From Rugalucina vietnamica (Eukaryota > Mollusca > Bivalvia > Lucinida > Lucinidae), in assembly GCA_964017185.1 (NCBI GenBank), contig OZ024871.1, forward strand, positions 6,316,214-6,380,213: a DNA stretch of 64,000 bases, given 5' to 3'. A program made the position numbers and the translations under genes. Below are positions 7,763 through 58,787 of this stretch, piece by piece (within the stretch, counting starts at the first letter, position 1; every line of letters starts with the position of its first letter). The notes below the pieces were generated by a model. The model ran no database searches. It saw nothing but the letters and a program-made list of their open reading frames with translations, and had not been told where the DNA came from.

Positions 7763-8030
7763 ACTGTATATATTGTAGAGGTATACTATTGCCCTAGAAA
7801 TCATTTGATGCCATTTTGAGCATGTTAGGGCTTTTGGTTGCTGAGATACACGTCATTTTGTAGCTTTACCGGTTGAATTTTTCAACCTTTTCATTCCTAT
7901 TTAGGAAGTTTTCATTAAAATTCATAAAATTGGAAATAAGATCATTCTTATATGAGACTGTGGGGTCATAGTACATAGCCATAGCATTCATAGATACTTC
8001 TTTCAGTATCCTGGGTTTATTTACAGCTCT
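7763..8030. other. Unassigned stretch
   Basis: TTTTCATTAAAATTCAT at about 7910 recurs at about 8632 with similar following sequence, which hints at an old duplication spanning the LINE tail between them. No gene is seen. Confidence 0.3.
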
Positions 8031-8246
8031 GATTTTGTTTATCTATCTTTCTTTCTTTACTTTGCGTACATGTCATTGTTTTGTTTTCACTTTTTTATCT
8101 AAACAAATTGTATTGAATGTATAATGCATGTATGTTATAACCATGTTTTTGAGGGCCCCAAGGTAGATTGGCTCTGCTAATTGGGCTACCCTCGTAAAAT
8201 AAAGTATTTACTTACTTTACTTACTTACTTACTACTTACTAATTAT
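8031..8246 (+). mobile_element. LINE 3' tail with TTAC microsatellite
   Basis: The end reads GCTCTGCTAATTGGGCTACC, then AAAATAAAGTATTTACTTAC followed by repeated TTAC units. A short UTR ending in AATAAAGTATTT plus a simple repeat is typical of CR1/L2-type LINE tails in molluscs. No reverse transcriptase sequence is attached. Confidence 0.5.
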
Positions 8247-9198
8247 AGTATTCTAGACCATGCTATTGTTTGTATATAAATATTTTTGTTAGTACACCCT
8301 ATTATTTAGAATCATACTAGGGGTGGGTGTGGAAACTATGTTATTTTACATCAAGCAAATGTGTTCATTGTTGAGGACAATATTTATGGCATTAATATGG
8401 TCCCTCTGACCACCCTGGCAGCCATGGAAATTGGTTTCAGGGATATAAGATAGATATTATTACCCATCCAAACCTTGCAATGTCTATAGTTTATCCTCGG
8501 GTTTTTTTCCTCGGTTTTCGACAGTTTTTATAAATATTGATGAATATACAGATATTATAATTTTCAAAGGCCCATGACATCAATACATTTGCAGTTTATG
8601 GAATTTTTAATGATTGTTTGTCATTTTTAATGTTTTCATTAAAATTCATGAATATGCAAATTAGATATATCTTGTATAACTTTCCATATGATAAAGCTTT
8701 TAAATGAGACCAAGTTCAATGGTCTAGGGTAAGTAATAGCGGCGATATAACCAATGTTTATGTATTTTTCATAGTGCAAACGAGTTTCTCTTTGAGGACA
8801 ATTTGTTTTGCGATTTTGGGGTCTCAATGAACGATTTGGCACCCATGAAAAATGATCCTTGGGTGTAAGGTAGGTCAAATTAGCTCCCGGGGTATTACAT
8901 GTATCTGATAAGAAAAAGCTATAGACTGAAAAATGTCTGTTGCATATCCTGAGGGGGATAAGATAGATCACACTCTTAATAACAAATATACGAGTTATCT
9001 ACGTTAAATTAGCAAGAACACTAATAAACGGCAGCCTATTTTCAACATTTGAATTCATCAAGCTTTCACAAGTCTCTAAAATTACAATCTGATAAGGTAT
9101 GTGGGGCTTCTTCAAAATTAAATACACATGCAATGATGGACCCTTATCTCTTTTTTAAAAGTTTTCAATTTCAAAGGTTGGCTATATGCATAACCAAG
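8247..9198. other. Region downstream of the first cysteine-rich gene
   Basis: Nothing coding is supported. The last ~200 bases would be the 3' UTR of the minus-strand gene that stops at 9199; I see no clear minus-strand AATAAA close by. Confidence 0.35.
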
Positions 9199-9567
9199 TC
9201 AGTACCCTTTTGTATAACATTCACCACAAAGTCTTGTATTTGTTTGCGACAACACACGACCTGCGCAGCTTAAGCATACTTTAAGCATTATATTGGATGT
9301 GTCTTTGAAGCATTTCTCACACATGGTATGTAGGTAATGCAGATTTGTGTCGTGTATTGTCTCGGTACCACAGGCAAACCGGCACAGGGTTTCATCCAAC
9401 TTAGCCTCGGTGCTGCATTGGTGGCAACGCCCTTGATTGTTGGGAAATCTAGAATAGGAGCAGGCGTGGATACAGCTCCTGGTGTCCATTGGCCTCTCGT
9501 CTCTCACTGCACTCGTCACTCGGTAAGTAATCAGAAGCATAAAAGCGAGAGTATTGAAGATTGTCAT
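9199..9567 (-). CDS. Secreted 12-cysteine protein, paralog 1
   Basis: The coding exon gives 122 residues. I chose the ATG at 9567 because a good splice acceptor (TACTTTCAG at 9580-9571) lies three bases before it and the identical arrangement occurs in the paralog at 18270. Residues 1-20 (MTIFNTLAFMLLITYRVTSA) are a signal peptide. The mature part begins VRDERPMD and carries 12 cysteines at 32, 36, 48, 51, 62, 66, 83, 86, 98, 101, 114 and 117, as six CX3C or CX2C pairs, with the C-terminus LCGECYTKGY. The protein is therefore probably exported and held by up to six disulfides, or binds metal. No transmembrane segment other than the signal is present. I do not recognise the family and assign no function. 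An untranslated 5' exon must lie at higher coordinates; a family P MITE sits in that intron at 9612-9893. Upstream in-frame codons to 9714 are intronic. Regulation is not visible. Confidence 0.8.
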   Translation of the reverse strand: MTIFNTLAFMLLITYRVTSAVRDERPMDTRSCIHACSYSRFPNNQGRCHQCSTEAKLDETLCRFACGTETIHDTNLHYLHTMCEKCFKDTSNIMLKVCLSCAGRVLSQTNTRLCGECYTKGY

Positions 9568-9611
9568 TGTCTGAAAGTATATTACGTATAGCACATGAAA
9601 ATCCAATAATA

Positions 9612-9893
9612 ACCAGTACGAAAACTTGCCCATGCAATATACAGAGATTTTTTCACCTGTAAAAATTGAAAATTTCATGAGAAAAATTTTGATATTTTTC
9701 TTATTTTTGCTCAAAACATAGATTGTGGGTACACGTTAGAACCGCCTCGGCGAGGCGGTTCTAACGAGTACCCACAATCTATGTTTTGGAGCAAAAAATA
9801 AGAAAATTAGGTATACCCCTGCAAACCCCAGTTTTACTATATAAAAGTGGGGTTTAAGGGGGTATATATTGCACGGACATGTTTTCCTGATAC
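9612..9893 (-). mobile_element. Family P palindromic MITE
   Basis: Complete copy in the reverse orientation: CGAAAACTTGCCCATGCAATAT at one side, CATAGATTGTGGGTACACG, a near-perfect GAACCGCCTCGGCGAGGCGG centre, then ACCCACAATCTATGTTTTGG and GTATACCCCTGCA. It lies just upstream of the first cysteine-rich coding exon, in its inferred 5' intron, and would fold strongly in that transcript. Confidence 0.8.
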
Positions 9894-12289: not shown

Positions 12290-13060
12290 TAGTCCAAGTA
12301 TGACAGGTGTTAAAGAAAGCAACTATGATAGGTGTTATCTTACATTATCATACATGGCGACCATCCTCAAATGTGGCAGCCATCTAGATGTTTATGCACA
12401 ACATACGCTAAGATTTAGTTTTTTTGTTTTGTAATTTCAAACAAACCTTCATTTTTCCATATACGGTGGCCATCTTGATTTATTAATGAACAAAATATGA
12501 TAAAATTTAGTTTTCATGTGCCTTGGTTCATACATTGTGATAAATAAACGGTCAAAATAGGCAAAGTATGACAGGTTTTAGAGTACAAACCTTCATTTTT
12601 TCCATATACGGCGGCCATCTTGAAAAATGTTGGCCATCTTGATTTGTAAATGTACAAAATATGATAAGATTTAGCTTCCATGTACCTTAGTTCATACATT
12701 TTGATACATAAACAGCCAAAGTAGGCCAAGTTTGATAGGTTTTAGAGCAAAAATCATATTTTTTTCCATCAGCGGCGGCCATTTTGAAAACTGGTGGCCA
12801 TCTTGATTTTTAATGCACAAAATATGATAAGAATTTTGTTTCTATATGCCTTGGTTCATATAATAGGATACAAAAATGGTCAAAATATTCCAAGTTTGAC
12901 AGGTGTAAAACCCCCCATTTTTCTATTTATGGCGGCCATTTTAAAAATGGCGGCCACCTTGATTTTTTTGAGTGGCTAACGGGTTTTTATTTTATCTTAT
13001 GGCCTGACCAAGGTTTGTGCCAAGTTTCATGCTTGCATCATTAAATGCACAATCTTTTCA
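12290..13060. repeat. Imperfect tandem array, ~165-bp unit
   Basis: About five units repeat the order: GGCGGCCATCTTGA-type phrase, ATGCACAAAATATGATAAGA, TTTAGTTTCCATG, TTGGTTCATACA, AAACGGTCAAAATAGGC, AAGTATGACAGGTTTTAGA. Units start near 12300, 12470, 12610, 12775 and 12930 and differ by many substitutions. No frame is conserved between units, so this is non-coding satellite-like DNA, perhaps the interior of a larger element. Confidence 0.75.
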
Positions 13061-17904: not shown

Positions 17905-18270
17905 TCAATTTGTCAGATATCCCTGTATGTAGCACTCTCCACACAACCTCGTGTACTCTGCAGATACCCCTCTTACTCCATTACATTTCTTACACACCAC
18001 GCCCATATTCATCTTGTTGAAGCAGGTTTCACAAAGCTTGGCGAGTGGCTTGATATTATTCATGTTTAACTTCATGGTTTCACAAGCAAAACTACACATG
18101 TTGTAGTTCAGTGGTAGAGATGTGGTGCAGATATCACACATAGCCGCATTGTCTGGCGTCGTCGAGTAGGTACATGCGTTAATACAGCTACGAACAGTTA
18201 GGCCTCGGTCTTCAATATGTGCCCCTATTGTCTTGAAGCTGAAGGCAATCATCAAAACTGTGAACAGCAT
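17905..18270 (-). CDS. Secreted 12-cysteine protein, paralog 2
   Basis: The coding exon gives 121 residues starting at the ATG at 18270, which is preceded by the acceptor TTTTGTTTTCAG and the same ACA leader triplet as paralog 1. Residues 1-17 (MLFTVLMIAFSFKTIGA) are a signal peptide. Cysteines lie at 29, 33, 45, 48, 59, 63, 80, 83, 93, 96, 110 and 113. The spacings CX3C-11-CX2C-10-CX3C-16-CX2C are identical to paralog 1, with only the last two gaps differing by one or two residues. Shared strings include RSCI, CETCF/CEKCF and TRLCGECY. By eye the mature parts are somewhat under half identical, so the duplication is old. A minus-strand ATTAAA lies about 60 bases past the stop and could serve for polyadenylation. 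Function unknown; secretion and a disulfide-rich or metal-binding fold are inferred. Confidence 0.8.
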   Translation of the reverse strand: MLFTVLMIAFSFKTIGAHIEDRGLTVRSCINACTYSTTPDNAAMCDICTTSLPLNYNMCSFACETMKLNMNNIKPLAKLCETCFNKMNMGVVCKKCNGVRGVSAEYTRLCGECYIQGYLTN

Positions 18271-18390
18271 TGTCTGAAAACAAAATTTGAAAATAATGCA
18301 CATATCATTTATTTGATTAAGCCTTGATTTGCCGGTCCAATGCCGAAAAAAAATGAAGTAAAGCAAATCTCGCAACCCGGATTGAGTGGA

Positions 18391-18985
18391 AAGGTATCAA
18401 GAAAAGGCGCAATCAGAGAGAAATTCCCACATCAAAAATAGAGTTGGGAAAAACTAAATTGACAATTAAGTACTTACATGTATACTTAGAAAACGTATCG
18501 TAAGCCGAGTGAGCAGCTGTTTCCCAATAGGCGGCCACTCAGTTACCCGAACTTTAATAAAGATATGAAAACGTACATAAGGTTCAAACCGCACAAAAAA
18601 ATCGACTCCAAAATATAATACAAATGGAACCACAACAGAAGTATCGCCTTGGAACGATCAGGAATATAAAACTACTTGGGAGGGGTTGGGGAGCTTAAAC
18701 CGGTTTTACAGGCCCCTAACCTCACCCTCATCTTCTGCAGTGGTTCACAACATTTAGTTAGTTGTTCGGTCCTCGTGGTGGCTCTCTAACTAGTCAACGA
18801 ATCATCAAGGACAAACAAATAAATCATGATAACTACCCTGATGAATCAAAAACGAGGACTCAACAGATTCAGTAAGCTGTCCGACGATGGTGATCCCTGG
18901 GTGTCAAATAACTTACTGAAAACACCAGTTGAACCCCGTTTGGCCAAGCAACAGACAAAACAACCGTTATCATTTTCAAACTAAA
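18391..18985 (-). mobile_element. Family T tail, long copy
   Basis: Runs from AGGCGCAATCAGAGAG through GCCGAGTGAGCAGCTG, GAAGTATCGCCTTGG, CACCCTCATCTTCTGCAG, GTTCGGTCCTCGTGGTGG and CGACGATGGTGATCCCTGG to GGCCAAGCAACAGAC. It matches almost the whole UTR between the reverse transcriptase stop and the end at 28078, but none of the coding part. It sits just upstream of the second cysteine-rich coding exon, in its inferred 5' intron. Confidence 0.8.
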
Positions 18986-24528: not shown

Positions 24529-27500
24529 CTGAAATACAAATTACAGCGCGGGTTAAATTTTACTGCATGATTTACATTGTTACTCGTAGTCGACACGCCG
24601 GTTACACAATACTTACGAGCACCTGTAGGATCAAACCGGATGAAATCATTGTCGAATGACAGATGATAGGCCTTCCACAAATCCTTTGATGCCTCGAACC
24701 ATTTAACACGGTCCGGAGGGTACTCATACGTCAGGAATACTAACGTCCATGGTCCGTCACAGAAAACTCGTCTGCCTTTCCTGAAGAAAGATATGCATTC
24801 TGTTGGGTTCATTTTGTTTCAATTTTAGTGTGGATATAAATATAATTGATATTCACATTTTTGTTTGTAAAGTTTATTCGCAAATTCAAGTAAATGGAAA
24901 AAATATGCGGGATACATTCGTTGTTTATTTTGTAGTTCATTACGAAAAAATGTCCGTGTAATGTATACCCCTTTAACCCCTCTTTTATATAGCAAAACTG
25001 AGGTATGCAGGTTATACCTATTTTTCATGTTTTTGCTCCAAAACATGGATTGTGGGTACTCGAGGTGTGGCAGTTCTAATGTGTACCCAAAATCTGTGTT
25101 TTGAGCAAAAATAACAAACTGATTTTTTTTAATTTTTACAGCTTAAAAAATCTTTGTATATTGCATGGGCGTGCTTTTGTAATGTGTCGCGACGGAACGG
25201 GATGTCTTGCCTCACCTGGTAATTTCCTTTGTCTTATCCAGACAAAAGAAGCCGAACACGTAGTTTTCAGGATTGTCCGTGAAGTAAGATCCAGTGATGC
25301 CTTCTCCGGTCACGGGGTAAGCTCCATCTACAATATTTGGGTACGAAATCATTGTTGTTTTCAGCATTGAAGTTTAAAAGCGTTAGATTATATAGTTCCG
25401 ATGTAAGTAGCGGACTGGAGCGGACTGGCGCAGTTGGTAGCGCATCGGACTTTGGGCCGAGAGGTCCCCGGTTCAAGCCAGGGGCGTCGTCTGGTGTGTC
25501 CTTGAGCAAGTCACATTTCCACAGCTCAAAATGTAAATATGTATTATATGTTCTTAGTATAAGTCGCAATAAAAAGCTCTACAGAGCTTATGTTGATTGT
25601 TGATATATGTATGCGACTTTAAATAAAGATTATTATTATTATTATTATTATTATAAGTATTTAGATCTTAAACAAATGTCGTTTCTATCACTAAAAGCAA
25701 ATGGTCTGACCAAAATGACACGTTATCTCTAAGATGGGTGTATTTTTGTTTGAAGATTTAATTTAAAAGTTTTTTTCGACAAAGCGTCCCATAAACGTAC
25801 CGAAAGTATAGACAGCTCTGCCCCCGCACTTGTTCTTTTCGACAGACCGAAATCGCCAAGTATCGTTCACGCAAACGCCCCCAAACCTGAAAGGCAAAAT
25901 TAAATGTTTCTGTAGTGAAGAGAGCGATACAAGTGTTTCTGATATATGAGCCGCTGCACAATAAAACCAACATACAGGGATATGTCAGTACCTCTCCTTT
26001 CTAAGTCTAAAATTTCCAGCCTCTAACCATCTTGTGTGCAGCCCGGGTTTTGTCGGACCTGGTAGGAACCCCCAATTGTTGGTTGTCTTATGCAAAGGCT
26101 CATATATGATACAGACTCTAAGTTACCTTATCAGATAATCAGACTGTTCATATTCTATACAGTATTTAAACTCTTCAGTGACTCGTAAGCCATCTCATTT
26201 GGCTGGGTGTCTTTGATGAACATATCCATTCAAACAATCATTTATATTTCATATTGTTTGTTTGCTTTTAAATTATATGTATGAAAATAAATTACTATTA
26301 CTATGATATATTGCATAAAGCATATTCTACTTGGGTGGTTATATGGCAACAAATTCCAAAAGATGGAGCCATAGCTGTCGACTGGGACTGTGAGCAAAAA
26401 TTGAACAAACAAATCAGAGTCGTCATTTGTTAAATATCTTGAAGTATGGCCACTGACTTATATCAGAGTTCTTGTGGTTGTGCCGTGTGGCGGCCCTAAA
26501 AAGTCTCCCCGTACATCCATTTAATGCTCTTATTTTTCCAATCCTCAGGGATTGCTTGCAATCAGTTATCCTATCTCCTTGATAATATTTATATTAGATT
26601 TGGGACCAAGTTATACAGACAAATTGTTGGAATTCCGATGGGTACAAATTGCGCACCTCTCGTAGCTGATTTATTTTTATACTGCTACGAAAGAGATTTC
26701 ATGGATTCTCTTAACCATGATAATCAAGCTGATGTTATCGAGGCTTTTAATTCCACATCTAGGTACCTCGATGACCTTTTGAACATTGACAACCCTTATT
26801 TTGAAGGTATGGTCAATCAAATTTATCCACCTGAACTTCAGTTGAACAAAGCCAATATCTCAGATACTGAAGCCCCCTTTTTAGATCTACATCTTTCTGT
26901 TGCAAATGGATTTGTTTCTTCTAAAATTTATGATAAGCGCGATGACTTTGATTTTGATATAGTAAATTTTCCTTTTTTGGATGGTGACGTTCCTCGTCGT
27001 GCTTCTTATGGTGTATACATTTCGCAACTTATTAGGTTTGCTAGAGTCTGCAATCATGTTACAGACTTCAACGCTCGAAATAAATGTTTAACGGCAAAAC
27101 TTCTCCAACAGGGCTATCGGTATCATAAACTTCGAAAAACATTTTCTAAATTTTATCGTAGACACTATGAATTGATTTCCAAATATAATGTTGGGTTAAA
27201 GACGCTTTTAAGTGAGGGCCTTTCGGAACCTGAATTTTATGGTGACTTGGTTTACAAATTTAAGAAACTTAAAGGAATTAATGATTTTTCTTTTCAGTTC
27301 AGAAAAATCATAACACGTTACAGACGTATAGGTTATAACTTAAATGTTATGCGACAGTCTGTATGCTTAGTTTTTAACCCAATCATGGTTGATAACTATG
27401 CTGCCTTCTTTAATTGCACGCCGGTGGGTCGGGCGTCAGACTCTATGATGGCCCCGACATAAAGCTATTCATTTTAGTTGGTTGGGGCCGGAGCTTCTTG

Positions 27501-30500
27501 TCTGTTGCTTGGCCCACCGGGGTCCAACTGGTGTTTTTCTTTTGCTCCGGAGTTAGTACGTTATTCGGCGCCCAGGGATCTCCATCGTCGGGCAGCTTAC
27601 TCAGTCTGTGAGTCCTGGTTTTTGATCCATCAGGATGTTTATCATGTTTTATTTGTTTGTTCTTGATGATTCATTGACTAGTTAGAGATTCACCACGAGG
27701 ACCGAATAACTGTTATGAACCACTGCAGAAGCTGAGGGTGAGGTTATGGCCATGTAAAACCGGTTTAAGCCCGCCAGTAACTTTGTGTTACTGATCGTTC
27801 CAAGTCGATACTTCTGTGGTGGTTCTTTTTGTTTTATGTCTTGGTGTTTAAATTTTTTTTTTGTGCTGTTGGCGCCTTATGTATGTTTTCATATTTTTAG
27901 TTAAGTTAAGGTAACTGAGTGGCCACCTATTGGGAAAATAGCTGCTCATTCGGCTTACGATATGTTTCATGGTATAAGTACCTGATTGTTAGTTTGGTTT
28001 TTTCCCACCTCGGTTTTTGGAGTGGAAATCTTTTTCTGATTGCGCCTTTTCCTGATCTTTGCCTACTTGTACCTTTTTCCAACCATGCAACAGCCTGTGA
28101 CCCCGTGGTGGACATACTCGTATATACATGTATACTGGTTTACTGGCTTACCGCGGCACTAGCGATTCAATGGCTCACTAAAAATACGCAAGATTATCTA
28201 TCTTTTGTTAACCTGTTCGTTTTTTATCATTACCTCCTACGTATTCCTAAAAAGAAAAAATAAAATTTTCATTTGTTTCTGTTTTGCAAATTCATTCTTA
28301 TTGCCGTCATATCATTCAAGGTCGGTCAATTTTTGTTTCCTATATTACCGCGGAGTTCATCTTAATGGAAAACTGATCATTTTGAGAAGTCCTTATGATG
28401 TCGGAAAGTTATTGATAAAAAGAGCAGATATTTGCAAACAACATTCAAGGTCAACAACATCTTTGAAATTATTTTAGAGATTTAGGCAACATAAACATTT
28501 TCATGTTTGGGCTTTTCATAAATTTTAGCTTTTTTTCACTAATAAACACCGAGCAATGCACAAAGGGCAACTGAATTCATTGCTATATTTTAACTAAAAG
28601 CAAATGAAAAAATGATAAACTGTTGTTGTTTACACAGAAAATAAGTGTTTGTCTAGGTTTCTGATAAGAAAAATAACGCAAAATCGCGGTCTAAATACAT
28701 GTATGCGCAATTATTGTTCTGTTCTATTCTATTCTTACTATAAGGTGAACTCATATATACTTTTGCGGGTTTCCCGTAAAACTTACGGACATTTCCGAAA
28801 CGTTTGCGGATACTTCCAAATAAGGCGATAAATTGACCTATGCTGCGTTCGGATTGTGACAGACCCTGCCGACATTCCCGGTATAAAAATAAAATACAAA
28901 CATCTATTTTAAGAATAATTAGAGGCAGTTTAGAGGTAGAAGGGGGTCCTGATTGTGGGTAAAATCTTTGTTTTCATATGGCTTTGACAAAAATATCATT
29001 TAAATTACCAGTTTTCTAGACATATCTACCAAAATGTGCCTCAAACTCGGGGTTTATATTTGCGTCGTAGGATCTCGAATGTAAAAAATGCTAGAGCCCG
29101 AACACGCTAGAAATCCCGAGATATGCAAATACGTCGGTAACGTAGCATCCGCGGTAACGTAGGGTCGGAGTATAGTTACATTTTTATTGCAATCGCCCTA
29201 GATGAAAGTGTCTTTCGGATGTTCTTCAATTTTCGATGAAAAAACATTCGGTTACGTGATCTAGAGGCCACGTCCATGGGCGGGGCGACATAAAAACCAG
29301 CCAGTGACGTTGTTTGTTTAGTCTTGTTGGCGTGACGTTGGTCGCGTATCGTCATGACGTTAAGCGCGAAAATATGACGTTTTGGCTGTTCCAAAATAAC
29401 ATTACACAATTCAGATTTGAAATAAATTAACCAGACAATTAGCGATGGTATGTGCAAATAGGAATCTGAAACTTGATAACATAAAATGTAAATATAAGTA
29501 TTGAAATTCAGATTTTAGCTTTCGCTGGATGATGAAAAAACATTAGTTGTTTTAATGTCTCCGAGAAGCCATTCGGGCTTTACAGACATTAAAACAGCCT
29601 AATGTTTTTCATCATCTAGTGAAAGCTGAAAATCTGAATTCTAATTCTTAATTGAACTTACTGATATTTGGATCGGTGTAAACTGAACGATGTCTTGTCC
29701 AGAGAATTCTGATATTTCAAATATTGAACATAGTTTTCTAAACAGAGAACCTTTTCAGATAATTTGTTCAATTAATTACCTTGCATCCCATCTCGAAATG
29801 AAATCTCCGTTAGGCTTTAGTTCGTAGAATAACCTTAGATCCCTTGCCGTAGAATCATTAAACTTTGGGTTTGATATCCGGTAGATTGTGTACATTTGTC
29901 TGTTGAATATCTGCAGTGAAAATAAAACTGAGATCCTTTAAAACGCAGTGAGCGTATTTATGAGAAAAAGGATGGGCCGTACCGCGTTTTCGGCTCCTTA
30001 AGCCTCTTCAGTGACACTTTGGAGCCAAAGTAAAATACTGTAATCATGCAACTTTAAACAGGATAGTCGATACAAAGACTATATGGGCCGCTGCATCAGA
30101 AAACAAACAATCTGCATGTGCGAAACCAAAGGTGCAGATCAGCTGTGCAGTTACTGCACAGCTGATCAGCGCCTTTGCTTTCGATGCTCGGATAGTACAA
30201 TTTCTTTTCTACTTAAAATCAAAATAACTTTCTAGCTTCAAGCCTGATTCTGTGACTGTACAGGCCGGTTTGTGTCAGACCTGGTCGGAAGCCCAATTGT
30301 TGTTTTTTTATGCAAAAGATAAAATAGCAGTGACACATTAGCGGATAAGTGAAACGCGCGCCGGGCGTGTTATAAAAAAAGCAAAATTCCACATCCGCCA
30401 GACGCACGTCGGAGACACGTTCAAAACGCGTTACGTGTACACGTACGTTGGGTTCGCTTGGTGTACGTCCGGTGCGCGTCGCTGTACGTCGCTAAAAATC

Positions 30501-45944: not shown

Positions 45945-46870
45945 ACGGTAAGGGTGGGTTGACCTTCTTTTCATGGTCCAGTGATTTTGCCTTATATCTT
46001 GACACTCAATAAGTATATTTTCGTTCTTCTTTCAGATTATGAGTGAGTATGACCAGACATTTGCCCCCAATACACTTATAGGGCACTGTGACCTAATTTC
46101 ACGGTTCAGTGATTTTGCCTTATATCTTGACACTCAATAAGTATTGTCATACTTCTTTCAGATTATGAGTGAGGATGACCAGACCTTTGACCCTAAAATA
46201 GTCCTAGGTCATTGTGATCTAATTTCACGGTTCAGTGATTTCGTCTTATATCTCGGCACTCATTTGGTTTATGAACAAACTTCTTTCACACTATGTTTGC
46301 GTATGACTAGACCTTTGACCCTAAAGTAGTCCTAGGTCATTGTGACCTAATTTCACGGTTCAGTGATTTTGCCTCAGATCTTGGCACTCAATTGGTATAT
46401 GAACATACTGTTTTCACGATATGTTTGCGAATGACCAGACCTTTGACCCTGAAGTATTCCGAGGTCACTGTGACCTAATGTAATGGTCCAGTGATTTTTG
46501 CCTTATATCTCGACACGCAGTCGGTATTTTTTTACTTTTTTCAGATTATGAATGAGTATGACCAGACCTTTAACTCAAACGTTCTTAAAGGTCACTATGA
46601 CCTTATTTCATGGTTCAGTGATTTTGCTTAATATCTCAACACTCAATGGGTATATGATCATATTTCTTTCACATTACGAGTAAGTATGACTAGACCTTTG
46701 ACCCTAGAGTTCTTATAGGTCAGTGTGACCTTATTTCATGGTTCAGTGATTTCACCTTTTATCTCGGCACTCAGTTGGTATATGAACATGCTTCTTTCAT
46801 AATATGAGTGCGTCCTTTAAACCGCAGGCAGGTATTGTTAAGTGTCATGGTTCAGTAATTTTGCCTTATA
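45945..46870. repeat. Tandem array, ~130-bp unit
   Basis: Seven to eight units repeat GGTTCAGTGATTTTGCC, TTATATCTTGACACTCAAT, TCTTTCAGATTATGAGTGAG, TATGACCAGACCTTTGACCC and AGGTCACTGTGACCTAATTTC. Starts lie near 45968, 46108, 46229, 46350, 46488, 46617 and 46745. The AGGTCAnTGTGACCT half-sites resemble an everted or direct steroid-receptor-type word, but given the array this is probably incidental. Confidence 0.8.
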
Positions 46871-48789: not shown

Positions 48790-49078
48790 ACTCCTTTACA
48801 ACATTACGAAAACTTGCCCATGTAATAAACAGATATTTTTTAGCTTTAAAAATTGAAAATGTTCAGCGGAAAAATGTTGATATTTTTTTCTTATTTTTGC
48901 TCAAAACATAGATTGTGGGTACATGTAGAACCGCCTCGCCGAGGCGGTTCTAACGAGTACCCACAATCTATGTTTTGGAGCAAAAATAAGAAGAATAGGT
49001 ATACTCCTGCATACCCCAGTTTTTCTATATAAAAATTGGGGTTGAAGTGGGTATTCATTGCACGGACATGTTTTCCTA
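48790..49078 (-). mobile_element. Family P MITE, well preserved
   Basis: ACGAAAACTTGCCCATGTAAT, CATAGATTGTGGGTACATG, GAACCGCCTCGCCGAGGCGG (perfect centre), ACCCACAATCTATGTTTTGG, CTGCATACCCCAGTTTTTC and GCACGGACATGTTTTCC. This is the clearest reference copy in the window. Confidence 0.85.
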
Positions 49079-49087
49079 GTGGCGATA

Positions 49088-49862
49088 TACTTAGGGGATA
49101 ACTGTATTCAAATTTTTCATTTGGGGCGGTATATCGTCGGATATACGGTCGGAAATTTTGTTTTACGGCGACGCGTTAGCGGAGCCGTAAAACATGATTT
49201 CCGACCGTATATCCGACGATATACCACCCCAAATGAAAAATTTGAATATTGTTATCCCCATTCTAATGTACTTTTTAACTATAAACATCGAAAAATGCTT
49301 TGTTTTTCACGAAATGTGAGCGTGACGAGCGACGTATAACCACGACGTTAACCAATCAGAAGCGACGTTGCTCATGACGTTAGGTTTCCGACGGTACATC
49401 GCAGAATATACTGTCGCAAATTTTTGAGGTTATCCAATAAGACGTCGCGTAACATTCTCGAGTGCATTAGAATTAGGGGATAACTGTATTCAAATTTTTC
49501 ATTTGGGGCGGTATATCGTCGGATATACGGTCGGAAATTTTGTTTTACGGCGACGCGTTAGCGGAGCCGTAAAACATGATTTCCGACCGTATATCCGACG
49601 ATATACCACCCCAAATGAAAAATTTGAATATTGTTATCCCCATTCTAATGTACTTTTTAACTATAAACATCGAAAAATGCTTTGTTTTTCACGAAATGTG
49701 AGCGTGACGAGCGACGTATAACCACGACGACGTTAACCAATCAGAAGCGACGTTGCTCATGACGTTAGGTTTCCGACGGTACATCGCAGAATATACTGTC
49801 GCAAATTTTTGACGTTATCCAATAAGACGTCGCGTAACATTCTCGAGTGCATTAGAATGTAT
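49088..49862. repeat. Tandem duplication of a ~385-bp palindromic element
   Basis: Two copies (about 49091-49474 and 49475-49862) differ by one three-base gain (CGA) and a couple of substitutions. Each starts TTAGGGGATAACTGTATTC and contains a near-perfect palindrome, CATTTGGGGCGGTATATCGT through GGTCGGAAAT, turning at GACGCGTTAGCGGAGCC and returning to ACCACCCCAAATG. The rest of each copy (GAGCGTGACGAGCGACG, GACGTTAGGTTTCCGACGG, CATTCTCGAGTGCATTAG) is unpaired. Apparent 72- to 93-codon frames are artefacts of the duplicated palindrome. Confidence 0.9.
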
Positions 49863-50203
49863 ATCATACATGGTGTAAATCTAAGAAACCTTCAATCGTG
49901 TTGTTATTGATAATTTATCTTTTTGCAGTAATGGTTTCTCCCATAACGACTGGCTTGATTGACAGTGATCAAGTTGTTTGTAAAGATGAAGATGTTTTCT
50001 CAGCGGATTCGAAACGTAAGGAATAAATCTAGTGTGATAAAACATTCCCCTCGATTAATCCCCGTGCATTAATCAAACAATAATCATAAACGATCGACCA
50101 GATGTATGATTCTTTAGCGTGATGGAAGTAAATGATATTCTTACAAGATTTCTTAATTCTCAGAAATATGATATGAAATCATTTTATTCCGACTGTTTAC
50201 TTA

Positions 50204-53200
50204 CCCAGGGAGCCAAAAGTCTCTATCTTGCAAAAAAAAAGGTTGGAGGTGACATCTCCTGCTATAGTTGTTTTGAATGCATTTTTGGATAGCTCTGACC
50301 TTCCAAAAGAAGGTCTAAGTGGACTGCTCTGGAAATTTTTTTGGCGCGATGCTTTAATCAGACGGTATTTAGACGTACTATTTGTTATACAGCTGAAATG
50401 CAGTACACAACTGTATTACGAACAGTCATATTTGTAGTATGTTTCTTCATTATCGTATACTATCCTGATGCCATTTTATCTTGTCTGATTGCGGCTGAGT
50501 ATGTCTTACCCATGTATAAAGCTGTAAATGTGTCATTTGAGTAAACTATGTGTCATCTTAAGGCATTGAATTACCCCACCCACTTAATGTATATGTTAAA
50601 CTTTATGTGCAATTATGAGAATCAATATATTTTTATCAGTACATTTTTATCAACAAATGTTGATGTCATCATTATTTTATAACATTTTATTGCTTTTTAC
50701 TCTGTTTACATCCTGTTCAAAGTTTATTTACTCATGTAGAGACAACACAATGATTGGTAAATGCGGAAAAAGTCTGCCAAAATTAATTTAAGCAAAACTT
50801 GGCTTCTCATATTGCCATTTGAAGTGTTTGGGGCGGGTTATCTATAGGACTTACCTTGCACCCTTAGAACAAATGCTAATGGGTGCCAGTTTGGTCAGAG
50901 GATCACTTCAATGCCCATTCGTGTCACATAAAATCACAGAATGCTCAACCCCACCCCTAATAAGCAGAGGAAGTATTGTGTTACCCCTATATTACCACAT
51001 GTATCTTGGCTACTGATAGACCTAGAGAGCAGAAATAGGTATCAAATAATTGTTTTGACAATGCTCTATAACCATGTAATCAAACTGACTTCCTGGTGTT
51101 TGAATATCAATGAGAACTTTATATATTAGAAAAAAATCACATAAAAATGGAGTATACCAGCACAATTGCTTATACCTCAGCAATCAAAAGATCTAGAGAG
51201 CTCAAAATTGGTATCAAATGATTGCTATGACAATGTTCTATAACCATGTAATAAGATATATAAACAAGCTGGCTATCTTAATCTCAATTATTAAAGAGAA
51301 CTTCAGATATTAGAGAAAAATAACAGTAAATGAAGGGGGTATACCAACAGCATTGCTGATATCTCAGTAACCAAAAATTTTATAGAGCTGAAATTTATAT
51401 CAAATGATTGTTATGATAAAGTTCTATAATAATGTGATAAAATGCAGACATAATTTGACTTTCTTGGTGTTCAAATATTGATGAGAACTTTAAAATTAGA
51501 AAAAAATCACAGAACAATGGAGGGGGTATACCTACAGAAATGTTTATAGCTCAGCAACCAAAAGCCATAGAGAGCTGAAATTGGTAACAAATAATTGCTA
51601 TGACAACCACAAAATATGATACATAAATAATCAGACTTTCGTGCTGTTCGAATATTGATGACAACTTAAAATATTAGAGAAAAAATGCAGAAAATGGAGG
51701 GGGTATACCTACGGAAATGTTTATATCTCAGCAACCAAAAGCCATAGAGAGCAGAAATTTGTATCAAATGATTGCTATGACTATATTCTATAATCATGTA
51801 TGAAGATATATAAATAAGCTGACTTTCCTGCTGCTCCAATATTTAAGAAAACTTAAGTATAAGAGAAAAATCATTGGCAAATGAAGGGAGTATACCAATA
51901 AGATTGAAAATATCTCAGTGACCAGAAGCTCTAGAGAGCTGAAATTGGTTTCAAATCATTGCTATAACAATGTTCTATAATCATGTGATAAGAACCATAA
52001 AAATACTACTTTCTTGTTGTTGGAATATTGATGAGAACTTTAAATATTAGATAAAAATCTCAGAAAAATAGAGGGGGTATACCAATGGAAACGTGTATAT
52101 GTCAGCAACCAAAAGCCATAGAGAACTGAAATTGGTATCAAATAATTGCTATGACATTATTCTATTACCATGTAAAAAGATATATAAACAATCTGACTTT
52201 CGTGTTGCTCAAATATTTAAGAAAACTTTAGATATAAGAGAAAAAATGATTGGCAAACGAAGGGGGTATACCAATAAAACTGAAAATATCTCAGTGACCA
52301 AAAGCTCTAAAGAGCTGAAATTGGTTTCAAATAATCGCTATAATAATGTTCTATAATCTTGTGATAAAAATCATAAATAATACTTCTTTCTTGTTGTTAT
52401 CATATTGATGAGAACTTTAAATATTAGATAAAAATCTCAGAAAAATAGAGAGGGTTTACCAATGGAAATGTGTATATCTCAGCAACCAAAAGCCTTAGAG
52501 AGCTAAAATTGGTATCAAATAATTGCTATGACAATGTTCTATAACCATGTAAAATGAATTATAACAAACTGACTTTCTTGCTGCTCAAATATTTAAGAAT
52601 ACTTAAGATATAAGAGAAAAAATCATTGGCAAACGAAGGGGGTATACCAATAAAATTGAAAATATCTCAGTGACCAAAAGCTCTAAAGAGCTGAAATTGG
52701 TTTCAAATCATTGCTATAATAATGTTTATAATCTTATGATAAGAACCATAAATAATACTACTTTCTTGTTGTTGGAATATTGATGAGAACTTTAAATATT
52801 AGATAAAAATCTCAGAAAAATAGAAGGGGTATACCAATGAAAACGTGTATATCTCAGCAACCAAAAGCCATAGAGAGCTGAAATTGGTATCAGATAATTG
52901 CTATGACAATATTCTATAACCATGTAATAAGATATATTAACAAGCTGACTTTCTTGTCGCTCAAATATTTAAGAAAACTTAAGATATGAGAGAAAAATCA
53001 CTGGCAAACGAAGGGGGTATACCAATAAAACTGCTAATTTCTCAGTGACCAAATGCTCCAGAGGGCTGAAATTAGTATCAAATGATTGCTAGGATAATGT
53101 TCTATAACCATGTGCTAAGACACACAAACAATCTGACTTACTTGTTTTTCCAATATTGATAAATCTTTAAATATTAGAGAAAAATCACAGAAACATGGAG

Positions 53201-54133
53201 GGGGTATACCAACAAAAATTTATAACTCGGCAACCAAATGTCCTAGAGAGCTAAAATTGGCATCGAATGATTGCCATGATAATGTTCTATAACCAAATGA
53301 TAAGATAAATGAATATTTCAACTATCTTGTTGTTTAAATATTGATGATAACTTAAAATATTAGATACAAATCACACAAACATAGAGGGGGGTATACCAAC
53401 AGAAACGTTTATATCTCAGCGACCAAAAATCCTAGAGAGCTGAAATTGGTATCAAATGATTGATATGACAATAATGAACAACTAACTAGATACAATTGTA
53501 GTATTTCATAGCCGCTTGCTTAAAGGTGTGCATGATCCAGCCTATGGAATAATGAGAACTTACATTTAACATTTTATAGGAAACGGTAATTTGACCATGC
53601 ACTTGGTCATAATAATGATGAACAGATGTAAATTTATAAAGAAACTGAATGACAAAAATAAATATAAATACATGTATAATGTTTATGAGCACATCATATA
53701 TTCATTTGTTCTTCAATGTCTCACGAATCAATATGCATTTATTTAAATTTCTTGATTCATATTATTATGTAAGTGGGTGGGGTAATTCAACATCATAAAT
53801 ACTAAAACAATAGCAGCAAAAGTATGAATTAAAGAATATAATAAGATTACTGCTTTATCTGTGATTCCTAGCATTGCTGTAGACTAGAAAATTCAGCAGT
53901 TTATGATCTGAAACACAAAGGATATGTTCATATATCTAGAAAACGTTTGTAATACGTAGGCAGCTCAAATAGCTTGAAAACAATGTGTAATTTAACCATC
54001 GCGCCAAAAAAAATTCGTGAGCAGTCCACCCGGGCCTTCAATAGGATGGCAAAGCCTAACCAAAATTGTATTTAAACCAACTATAGCAGGTGATGTCACC
54101 TCCTCTCCCCAAAACGGGGCTTGGCTCCCTGGG
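50204..54133. mobile_element. 3.9-kb element with long TIRs enclosing a satellite array
   Basis: The ends read CCCAGGGAGCCAA inward and are flanked by TA on both sides. Inverted similarity continues through GAGGTGACATC, CTGCTATAGTTG, GTGGACTGCTC and TTTTTTTGGCGCGATG to about 150 bases, then recurs at TTGAATTACCCCACCCACTT (50566 and mirrored at 53789), giving terminal repeats of about 380 and 365 bases. The interior (about 50985-53480) is a tandem array. There is no transposase. I infer a non-autonomous TA-target element that carries satellite DNA. Confidence 0.8.
50985..53480. repeat. Satellite array, ~187-bp unit with dimeric order
   Basis: About 13-14 units repeat GGGGGTATACCAA, TATATCTCAGCAACCAAAAG, AGAGAGCTGAAATTGGTATC, AAATGATTGCTATGACAATG, TTCTATAACCATGT, AGCTGACTTTCTTG, CAAATATTGATGAGAAC and TAAATATTAGAGAAAAATC. 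GTATACC marks lie near 51156, 51343, 51529, 51706, 51891, 52078, 52266, 52643, 52831, 53018, 53204 and 53389. From 51891 two unit types alternate (CAGCAACCAAAAGCCATAGA and CAGTGACCAAAAGCTCTAA), giving a ~375-bp higher-order period. Confidence 0.9.
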
Positions 54134-54252
54134 TAACTGTGCGAAATAACCAAATAGAATACGGAGTTTGTCTCTATTAAAAAATGCGTATAAATAACAC
54201 GTAACTGTAAAAATTATGCACTAATGTAAAACAGAAAGAAATTCTAACTCGA

Positions 54253-57264: not shown

Positions 57265-58787
57265 AGCTCACCTGAGCCGAAGGCTCACAGGTGAGCTTAA
57301 AGTATACCCATGCTCCGGCGTCCGTCCGTCGTCCGTCCGTCCGTCGTTCACAATTTCAAAGATCTTCTCCCCTGAAACCGCTGGGCCAATCAAAGCCAAA
57401 CTTCATGTGGAGCATCCTTAGGAAGGGGGAACGAAAGTTTATATAAATAGTCCAGGTCACATGACCAAGATGGCCGCCATGGCTATAAATAGCAAAAACC
57501 TTTAAAAATCTTCTTCTCTAGAACCAGTGGGCCGATTTCCACGAAACTTGGTATGTAGCATTGGGGACGTAGGTCCATCATAATTGATATAAATCATGAC
57601 CCTAGGATGACCTTGACCTATTTTACTGCAAGGTCAACTTAGGTCGCCCATGCATTTGAATGGGAAAAAATGGTAAAATGTTATTTAATGATAAAACTTA
57701 CTGGGAATAGGCAAATGGACAGAAGATTAATGTTAATGGAAAATTTTTGCCCCTGGGGGGCTGTCTGCCCCTGCCCCGGCGCTATATACATGTATATTTC
57801 CATAATAATGAAACATCTTCTCCCCTAGAACCGCTTGGCCAATCAAATTCAAACTTCATATGGAGCATCCTTGGGAAGGGGGAAAGAAAGTTTATATAAA
57901 TGGTCAAGGTCACATGACCAAGATGGCCGCCATGGCTATAAATAGAAAAAACATTTAAAAATCTTCTTCTCCAGAACCAGAAGGCAAATGATTTTGAAAC
58001 TTGGTGTGAAGCATCAATGACTAGAGCTCTACAAAGTTTATATAAATCATGACCCTGGGATGACCTTGACCTATTTTACAGCAAGGTCAACATAGGTCGC
58101 TCATGCATTTGAATGGGGAAAAGTGTTAAAATGTCATTTGTTGGAAAAAACTTGCAGGAAATGGGCAAATGGACTTAAGATTGATGATTCTGAAAAAATT
58201 TGGACCCCAGGGGTCTGTCTGCCCCCACCCCGGGGCAATATATATGTATATTTACAGTGATATTCAAAGATCTTCTTCTCTGAAACTGCTTAGCCAATCA
58301 AAGCCAAACTTTATGGAGAGCATTGTTAGAAAGTGGGAATGAAAGTATATATAAATGGTCATGGTCACATGACCAAGATGGCTGCCATGGCTATAAATAG
58401 CAAAATCCTTTAAAAATCTTCTTCCCCAGAACCAGAAGGCCTATGATTTTGAAACTTGACATGAAGCATCAGGCAATAGAGCTCTACAAATTTTATATAA
58501 ATTGTGACCCTTGGATGACCTTGACCTATTTTACGACAAGGTCAACTTAGGTCGCCCATGCATTTGTATGGGGAAAATTGTTAAAATGTCATTTGAAGGG
58601 CAAAACTTGCAGTAAATTGTCAATTGGACTGGAGTTTAATGATTTGAAAAAGAATTTGACTCCAGGGGTTGCTCTGATCTGGCCCTGGGGTTATATACAT
58701 GTATATTACCATTGTAGTCAAACAAGTTTATTGGTATATATCTCAGGTTTCAGGTGAGCGTTTACAGGACCATTGGTCCTCTGGTTT
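57265..58787 (+). repeat. Family H repeat, complete copy
   Basis: The 5' end is a fold-back, AAGCTCACCTGAGCCGAAGG, mirrored by GGCTCACAGGTGAGCTT, then GTCCGTCCGTCGTCCGTCCG. Three internal units of ~450 bp follow (near 57350, 57815 and 58262), each with CCTGAAACCGCTGGGCCAATC, GACCAAGATGGCCGCCATGG, CTTTAAAAATCTTCTTC, GAAACTTGG and GATGACCTTGACCTATTTTAC. The 3' end is CAGGTGAGCGTTTACAGG, a GGACCATTGGTCC hairpin and CTGGTTT. No protein is encoded. The hairpin plus CTGG end could suggest a Helitron-type terminus, but the 5' fold-back is not typical of one. Confidence 0.85.

Follow-up and report, generated by a model that had tools for sequence, protein, structure and literature searches.

Here we analyse a 64,000-nucleotide stretch of the genome of the lucinid bivalve Rugalucina vietnamica (contig OZ024871.1, positions 6,316,214 to 6,380,213 of the forward strand), referred to throughout as the window. 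At window positions 50202–54135, a tandem array of ~187-bp satellite units is enclosed by long terminal inverted repeats (TIRs), and we assign this locus to a family of putative non-autonomous DNA transposons, designated F1. Part of its interior resembles a second family of TIR elements, designated F2, which is considered further below. The components of the F1 copy and its borders are as follows.

50199–50201, no strand: left target-site duplication, ACT, equal to 54136–54138
50202–54135, no strand: probable non-autonomous transposon copy (F1), TACCCAGGGAGCC...GGCTCCCTGGGTA, 3,934 bp; ends set by the 3-bp duplications and the empty sites of relatives
50202–50586, plus strand: left TIR, 385 bp, comprising the terminus, a 114-bp block and an inner 21-bp block
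50566–50586, plus strand: inner 21-bp TIR block TTGAATTACCCCACCCACTTA, left arm, identical in both arms
50810–50978, plus strand: interior left of the array, F2-like (75.6% between 607–999, counted from 50204, and F2-left 538–922)
50979–53474 (about), plus strand: tandem array of ~13.5 units of ~187 bp, units 4–10 alternating between types A and B (376-bp dimers)
53475–53769, plus strand: right interior, with no F2 similarity found except for satellite units at the array edge
53770–53790, minus strand: inner 21-bp TIR block, right arm, exact counterpart of 50566–50586
53770–54135, minus strand: right TIR, 366 bp
54136–54138, no strand: right target-site duplication, ACT, equal to 50199–50201

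Ends, target sites and copies of F1

A preliminary description of the locus had recognized the termini CCCAGGGAGCC, repeats of ~370 bases next to them and an interior of 13–14 satellite copies. The termini were borne out, the 11-mer occurring once in the window at 50204 and its reverse complement once at 54123, and so was the interior, which consists of 13 units and one partial unit. The terminal repeats are indeed long but imperfect: the blocks 50245–50358 and 53990–54103 are 80.9% identical (E = 4e-24 when searched against the window), whereas the arms align poorly between ~180 and 360 bp from the ends. The TA at both extremities is part of the element, the termini of which read TACCC and GGGTA.

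In 50202–54135, a scan confined to open frames of at least 90 aa found none that reached 95 aa; the sole stop-to-stop frame of that size (94 aa, 52072–52356) has no Pfam match. With no recognized coding frame, the window copy therefore depends on a transposase made elsewhere. Such an enzyme, encoded at another locus, would recognize the conserved TIR blocks and move F1 by cut and paste. The element has no Rfam match up to E = 5 and no match among phages and plasmids; exact patterns from it gave no matches in viral contigs, and one exact 22-mer gave none in prokaryotic genomes. The four matches of TACCCAGGGAGCCAAG in viral contigs align over just 15–20 bp and were taken as chance. Judged by title, no paper returned for the 11-mer CCCAGGGAGCC concerned transposons or satellites.

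Across the assembly that holds the window (1.09 Gb, 47 contigs), CCCAGGGAGCC occurs 450 times (238 + 212), compared to 40 (19 + 21) for the reversed control, leaving ~410 ends, or 205 end pairs, after correction. The inner motif TTGAATTACCCCACCCACTTA has 914 matches with up to two mismatches (none in the control), which at two per element allows ~450 copies, and F1 is present in roughly 200–450 copies. Among 100 listed places of CCCAGGGAGCC, 68 form 34 plus/minus pairs spaced by less than 9 kb. We retrieved 32 two-ended loci selected by their 11-mer ends (L013–L044), all of which contain the array, in a constant orientation relative to the difference between the left and right TIRs (32/32, with L042 read as a nested pair). 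Copies without large insertions measure ~3.1–4.0 kb, and several of the 32 loci are interrupted or truncated. In L042, one F1 copy is nested in another, with a TAA duplication and five extra bases relative to an uninterrupted relative; this locus was left out of unit labelling and of the divergence and unit-neighbour counts. L038 and L039, which equal L037, were left out of the divergence, unit-neighbour, empty-site and duplication counts. Over the right-hand 640 bp, the mean difference is 3.8% and 5.0% within two groups defined by the array start and 6.7% between them, a few copies (for instance, L019 and L033) falling on the other branch of the tree.

The TA beside the termini had been read as the duplicated target, which would make F1 a Tc1/mariner-like element, and TA does stand directly beside CCCAGGGAGCC in every one of the 32 left flanks and in all but one of the 32 right flanks (the right end of L023 reads CA). 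However, 28 of 32 insertions have the same three bases just beyond the TA on both sides, compared to 35 of 992 mismatched pairs (3.5%), in a test over offsets 0 to 4 that included 30 distinct loci, the window copy and the inner copy nested at L042. Furthermore, joined flanks of 9 of 30 tested insertions match an uninterrupted paralogous copy over at least 40 bp on each side of the junction, such sites being recoverable because these insertions sit in dispersed repeats. Among the seven of the nine alignments that were listed, clear empty sites differ from the occupied ones by TA+TGA (L027), TA+AAG (L040) and TA+TAG (L015). Because the duplication lies outside the TA and the TA is missing from clear empty sites, the element reads TACCCAGGGAGCC...GGCTCCCTGGGTA and is flanked by 3-bp duplications; TA as the target duplication is overturned, and with it the Tc1/mariner assignment, which we regard as very improbable. 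The case corrects an easy misreading, given that a TA next to a TIR need not be a target duplication. The duplications are varied in sequence and the bases adjoining the 32 insertions differ, so that the TIR copies do not share one flanking sequence, the pattern that had been named as a mark of segmental duplication. One such event did occur, as L037, L038 and L039 are a segmental triplication within 190 kb (C2, 64.51–64.70 Mb), identical over 4,443 bp including the flanks. Yet, for the family as a whole, an origin of array and inverted repeats by local rearrangement or segmental duplication without transposition is refuted by the differing neighbours, the 28 insertions with their own duplication and the empty paralogous sites, and has next to no probability. 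Rolling-circle elements of the Helitron/Helentron type, including the Cg_HINE Helentrons of the Pacific oyster, make no target-site duplication, whereas F1 and F2 both have 3-bp duplications as well as long TIRs at each end. These features render a satellite-carrying Helentron or HINE element equally implausible here, even though, among the satellite-like arrays studied in the Pacific oyster, the most abundant sit in Helentrons (PMC7492417).

Variation within the array

Tandem Repeats Finder (TRF) describes the array of the window copy as 12.8 copies at 187 bp (73% matches) or 6.1 copies at 376 bp (81%), the longer period matching better because the units alternate between two types. In units 4–10, A units are 87–91% identical to each other and B units 91–96%, compared to 70–74% between A and B. 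When the units of the other copies were matched to those of the window, left units 0–4 and right units 11–13 kept their identity in nearly all copies, and the varying part proved to be the number of B-A dimers between these edge units. Other CCCAGGGAGCC-ended copies thus carry the satellite with differing unit numbers, as the preliminary description had envisaged. By label reading of 29 copies, the core contains five units in 18 copies, seven in nine, three in one and two in one; that is, its number is odd (3, 5 or 7) in 28 of 29, L016 being the exception. The left-truncated L044 was excluded from this count. It has lost most of the left TIR and the first units, still shows the 3-bp duplication TAT and, with 11 units, has the longest core among the labelled copies.

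Comparison of 334 units from 30 copies (matches shorter than 150 bp dropped) placed the nearest neighbour in the same copy for only 16, with 10.3 expected at random. Edge-class units have a nearest neighbour of their own class in 179 of 198 cases, and core units find theirs in another copy in 121 of 136. Because unit neighbours follow position rather than copy, the array was already present in the ancestor of the copies read, with little homogenization within copies since. When the element is copied, the array goes along as a block, with fixed edge units and, in 28 of 29 copies, a core that differs by whole 376-bp dimers. Given that the A-A and B-B likeness far exceeds that between A and B, the dimer steps would have arisen within the element, by unequal exchange or by replication slippage. 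Such whole-dimer length variation in a mobile element separates amplification, which takes place inside the element, from dispersal, which takes place by transposition.

The F2 family, the shared cargo and other features of the window

A 22-mer of the satellite unit occurs 1,647 times in the genome and never in the control. The 100 places listed, all on C1 between 0 and 78.5 Mb, correspond to 54 loci, of which 12 lie within 10 kb of an exact F1 motif and 42 do not. Taken literally, the arrays thus lie mainly without the F1 TIRs, an outcome that the preliminary description had considered fatal to dispersal by a mobile element. However, this share is overstated, because the 22-mer misses F1 loci (8 of 20 F1 motif loci in the same region lack it, at least one of these, L051, being a chance match to the 11-mer) and because F1 ends that have mutated go uncounted. 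We sampled 16 of the non-F1 loci non-randomly, most being picked for several 22-mer matches, and 12 belong to F2: 11 were assigned by similarity, and L072 through an F2 right end at a distance of 3.7 kb. Among the others, L073 has an F1-like TIR at ~75%, and L065 and L069 have a third flank in common. Because these 12 loci lie in a second TIR family, the proposal that the satellite is dispersed by transposons survives in a wider form: F1 does disperse it but is not its sole carrier.

F2 right ends number 286 genome-wide with up to three mismatches (0 in the control), and all 11 exact ones on C1 (0–78.5 Mb) lie within 4 kb of a satellite match. The inverted repeats of F2 are ~400 bp long; TA follows the common sequence in 8 of 8 right ends. 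All four copies for which both ends were read have 3-bp duplications (AAA, CAT, GTA and TAT, the last requiring an extra A in the left end), compared to 0 of 12 mismatched pairs; the left end of the L066/L064 copy, which was unaligned with the others, was left out of this test. The suggestion that a mobile element carries or seeds the satellite holds for carriage, given the array in 32 of 32 F1 loci, the 28 duplications and the empty sites. We saw no sign of free-standing long arrays seeded by the element, in a weak test in which clusters on C1 (0–78.5 Mb) comprised at most four exact 22-mer matches among those listed. The window contains an older relative of the satellite repeat, adjoining a decayed F2-like flank, outside the F1 copy (7787–8788, minus strand).

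7787–7923, minus strand: diverged solitary satellite unit, 72% over 141 bp (E = 1e-11), with cores of 62–64 bp at 77–80%
8215–8788, minus strand: decayed stretch like the inner right flank of F2; L063/L064 flank matches of 72–90% within 7844–8748, and a local alignment without a significance test

The cargo of the two families is related, whereas their ends are not. Positions 503–1093 of an F1 copy of subfamily 2 (L020) are collinear with F2-left 308–877 (82%, E = 2e-160), the similarity running into the array, but a comparison of the terminal 300 bp of each family shows no more likeness than do shuffled sequences, of which 44 to 177 in 200 reach the observed score. The explanation that best fits this sharp junction would be the capture of an F2-type fragment by F1. 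In that case, the F1 termini would have taken up the inner part of an F2 left TIR together with the interior next to it and an array truncated on the right, and both families would have multiplied after the capture. Alternatively, F1 and F2 might descend from one ancestral satellite-carrying transposon that kept its interior while the termini diverged or were exchanged stepwise together with the transposases, and no capture took place. Such a common ancestor is consistent with the TA extremities, the 3-bp duplications and the long imperfect TIRs found in both families, as well as with the similar order of units in their arrays. However, the drop from 82% to no detectable similarity is abrupt. 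Furthermore, the F2 stretch 308–517 has a counterpart at both F2 ends but is found in F1 on the left only, and the last F1 unit is cut about halfway, whereas its best counterpart, in one F2 copy, is whole and penultimate and is followed by one partial unit. Descent from a common ancestor accordingly appears possible but doubtful.

Overall, we consider it highly probable (roughly 0.88) that 50202–54135 belongs to a non-autonomous family of DNA transposons, F1, carrying the 187-bp array as cargo that would have been captured from an F2-type transposon, and that the satellite has spread on at least two TIR families. The transposon nature of F1 is based on the defined TA ends, the long imperfect TIRs, the 3-bp duplications, the paralogous empty sites and the hundreds of dispersed ends; and, because F1 and F2 both carry the cargo, the satellite appears to be dispersed by hitch-hiking on both. 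Several observations weigh against this reading. An exact 3-bp duplication is absent from 4 of the 32 insertions (L021, L022, L029 and L043). Within the seven listed empty-site alignments, those of L019, L021, L022 and L043 contain extra small indels and that of L019 retains a TA, through placement by the aligner. The outermost 15–25 bp of the two F2 ends hardly match past TAG, which is unusual for a TIR element, and the direction of capture rests on parsimony and few F2 copies. Finally, no transposase-bearing relative was found among the loci read, in the course of which no genome-wide transposase search was made, and the cut-and-paste mode is deduced from anatomy.

Candidates for an autonomous partner were rejected. 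In L014, L019, L023, L024, L035 and L045/L046, other DNA interrupts an F1 copy; of the pair at C2 16.12–16.14 Mb, read in part, L086 is an F1 copy with an insertion and L087 lacks F1 similarity. L047 and L048 each consist of a right end on its own, with no satellite, and no transposase was recognized in their frames by eye, without a domain search. L051, L057 and L059 have no TIR similarity and were taken as chance 11-mers. Retroelement-like frames are present in L014, L023 and L087.

It is also conceivable, although we would not bet on it, that the array and its left flank form a portable module taken up by unrelated TIR transposons (F1, F2, an F1-like relative and possibly a third context) on account of a benefit to them, for instance, in nucleosome phasing or in the spacing and pairing of the two ends. 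Such a role would explain why 28 of 29 copies have kept an odd number of core units, an A followed by whole BA dimers.

Elsewhere in the window, a match to the selenocysteine insertion sequence (SECIS) element (27437–27504, plus strand; 37.4 bits, compared to the Rfam gathering threshold of 35) lies at the end of the frame 26500–27462, which has no Pfam match and which we presume to resemble a reverse transcriptase; a dispersed repeat is found nearby (27653–28035). Just to the left of the F1 copy, two mostly identical 97-aa frames are positioned 382 bp apart (49046–49339 and 49428–49721), and a relative is found at the L019 insertion site. Three other tandem arrays, at 12465–12904 (164-bp units), 45969–46810 (128 bp) and 57355–58707 (455 bp), have no F1-type TIRs within 4 kb on either side, the inverted matches around 45969–46810 coming from a repeat dispersed in the window. 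Two cysteine-rich frames on the minus strand (9199–9735 and 17905–18396) look mutually related by eye and have no Pfam match.

Classification and known relatives

With TIRs and target-site duplications, no coding capacity and an array between the TIRs in 32 of 32 loci, F1 has the features of a non-autonomous TIR transposon with internal tandem repeats. At ~3.1–4.0 kb, it exceeds the size of miniature inverted-repeat transposable elements (MITEs), which lie below about 1 kb. The hallmark of piggyBac and Kolobok is a TTAA duplication, whereas that of F1 is 3 bp long; PIF/Harbinger elements produce a 3-bp TWA duplication, but just 5 of the 28 exact F1 duplications are TAA or TTA; and the termini of EnSpm/CACTA elements are CACTA/CACTG rather than TACCC/GGGTA. 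Target-site duplications of 3 bp for Zator and of 3–4 bp for AcademX are given in an excerpt of PMC10045372. The duplication length of F1 fits both, making them candidate superfamilies by duplication alone.

Several satellite-bearing elements invite comparison, among them miDNA4, reportedly the work of Scalvenzi and Pollet, and Xstir, reportedly that of Hikosaka and Kawahara. In a clam, Donax trunculus, tandem-repeat-containing MITEs are said to have been described by Satovic and Plohl in 2013, the likeness to F1, by title, being that of non-autonomous elements with tandem repeats. The further comparisons draw on excerpts of the cited papers. miDNA4, a Xenopus MITE of the Tc1/mariner type whose internal satellite varies in its number of units (as described in PMC12628747), is, like F1, a non-autonomous TIR transposon whose internal satellite-like array differs in copy number between elements; F1 differs from it in the 3-bp rather than TA duplication and in the A/B dimer core between fixed edge units. 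The Xenopus MITE Xstir carries tandem repeats that perhaps derive from its own interior (PMC12628747), unlike F1, the array and left flank of which match a second transposon family. Tetris, a non-coding foldback transposon of Drosophila virilis, has ~220-bp tandem repeats in variable number (PMC4079207), but these are inside the TIRs and the duplications measure 8–10 bp, whereas F1 has its array between the TIRs and a 3-bp duplication, so that a foldback assignment was rejected.

A parallel in module sharing is offered by the Cg_HINE Helentrons, which contain satellite-like arrays as central repeats and some of which are related in flanking and repetitive modules (PMC7492417). Similar to F1, they disperse satellite-like arrays inside mobile elements, and module sharing as such is already known there; unlike F1, they are rolling-circle elements. 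Among the titles and opening lines of abstracts in the open-licence literature, we found no report of one satellite block in two TIR families with unrelated ends. The present locus provides a worked single-genome case of a satellite that spreads as short dispersed arrays, being the fixed cargo of one family and common to a second with unrelated ends. Repeat-carrying non-autonomous TIR transposons are known; the cargo common to two families and the dimer steps are new here.

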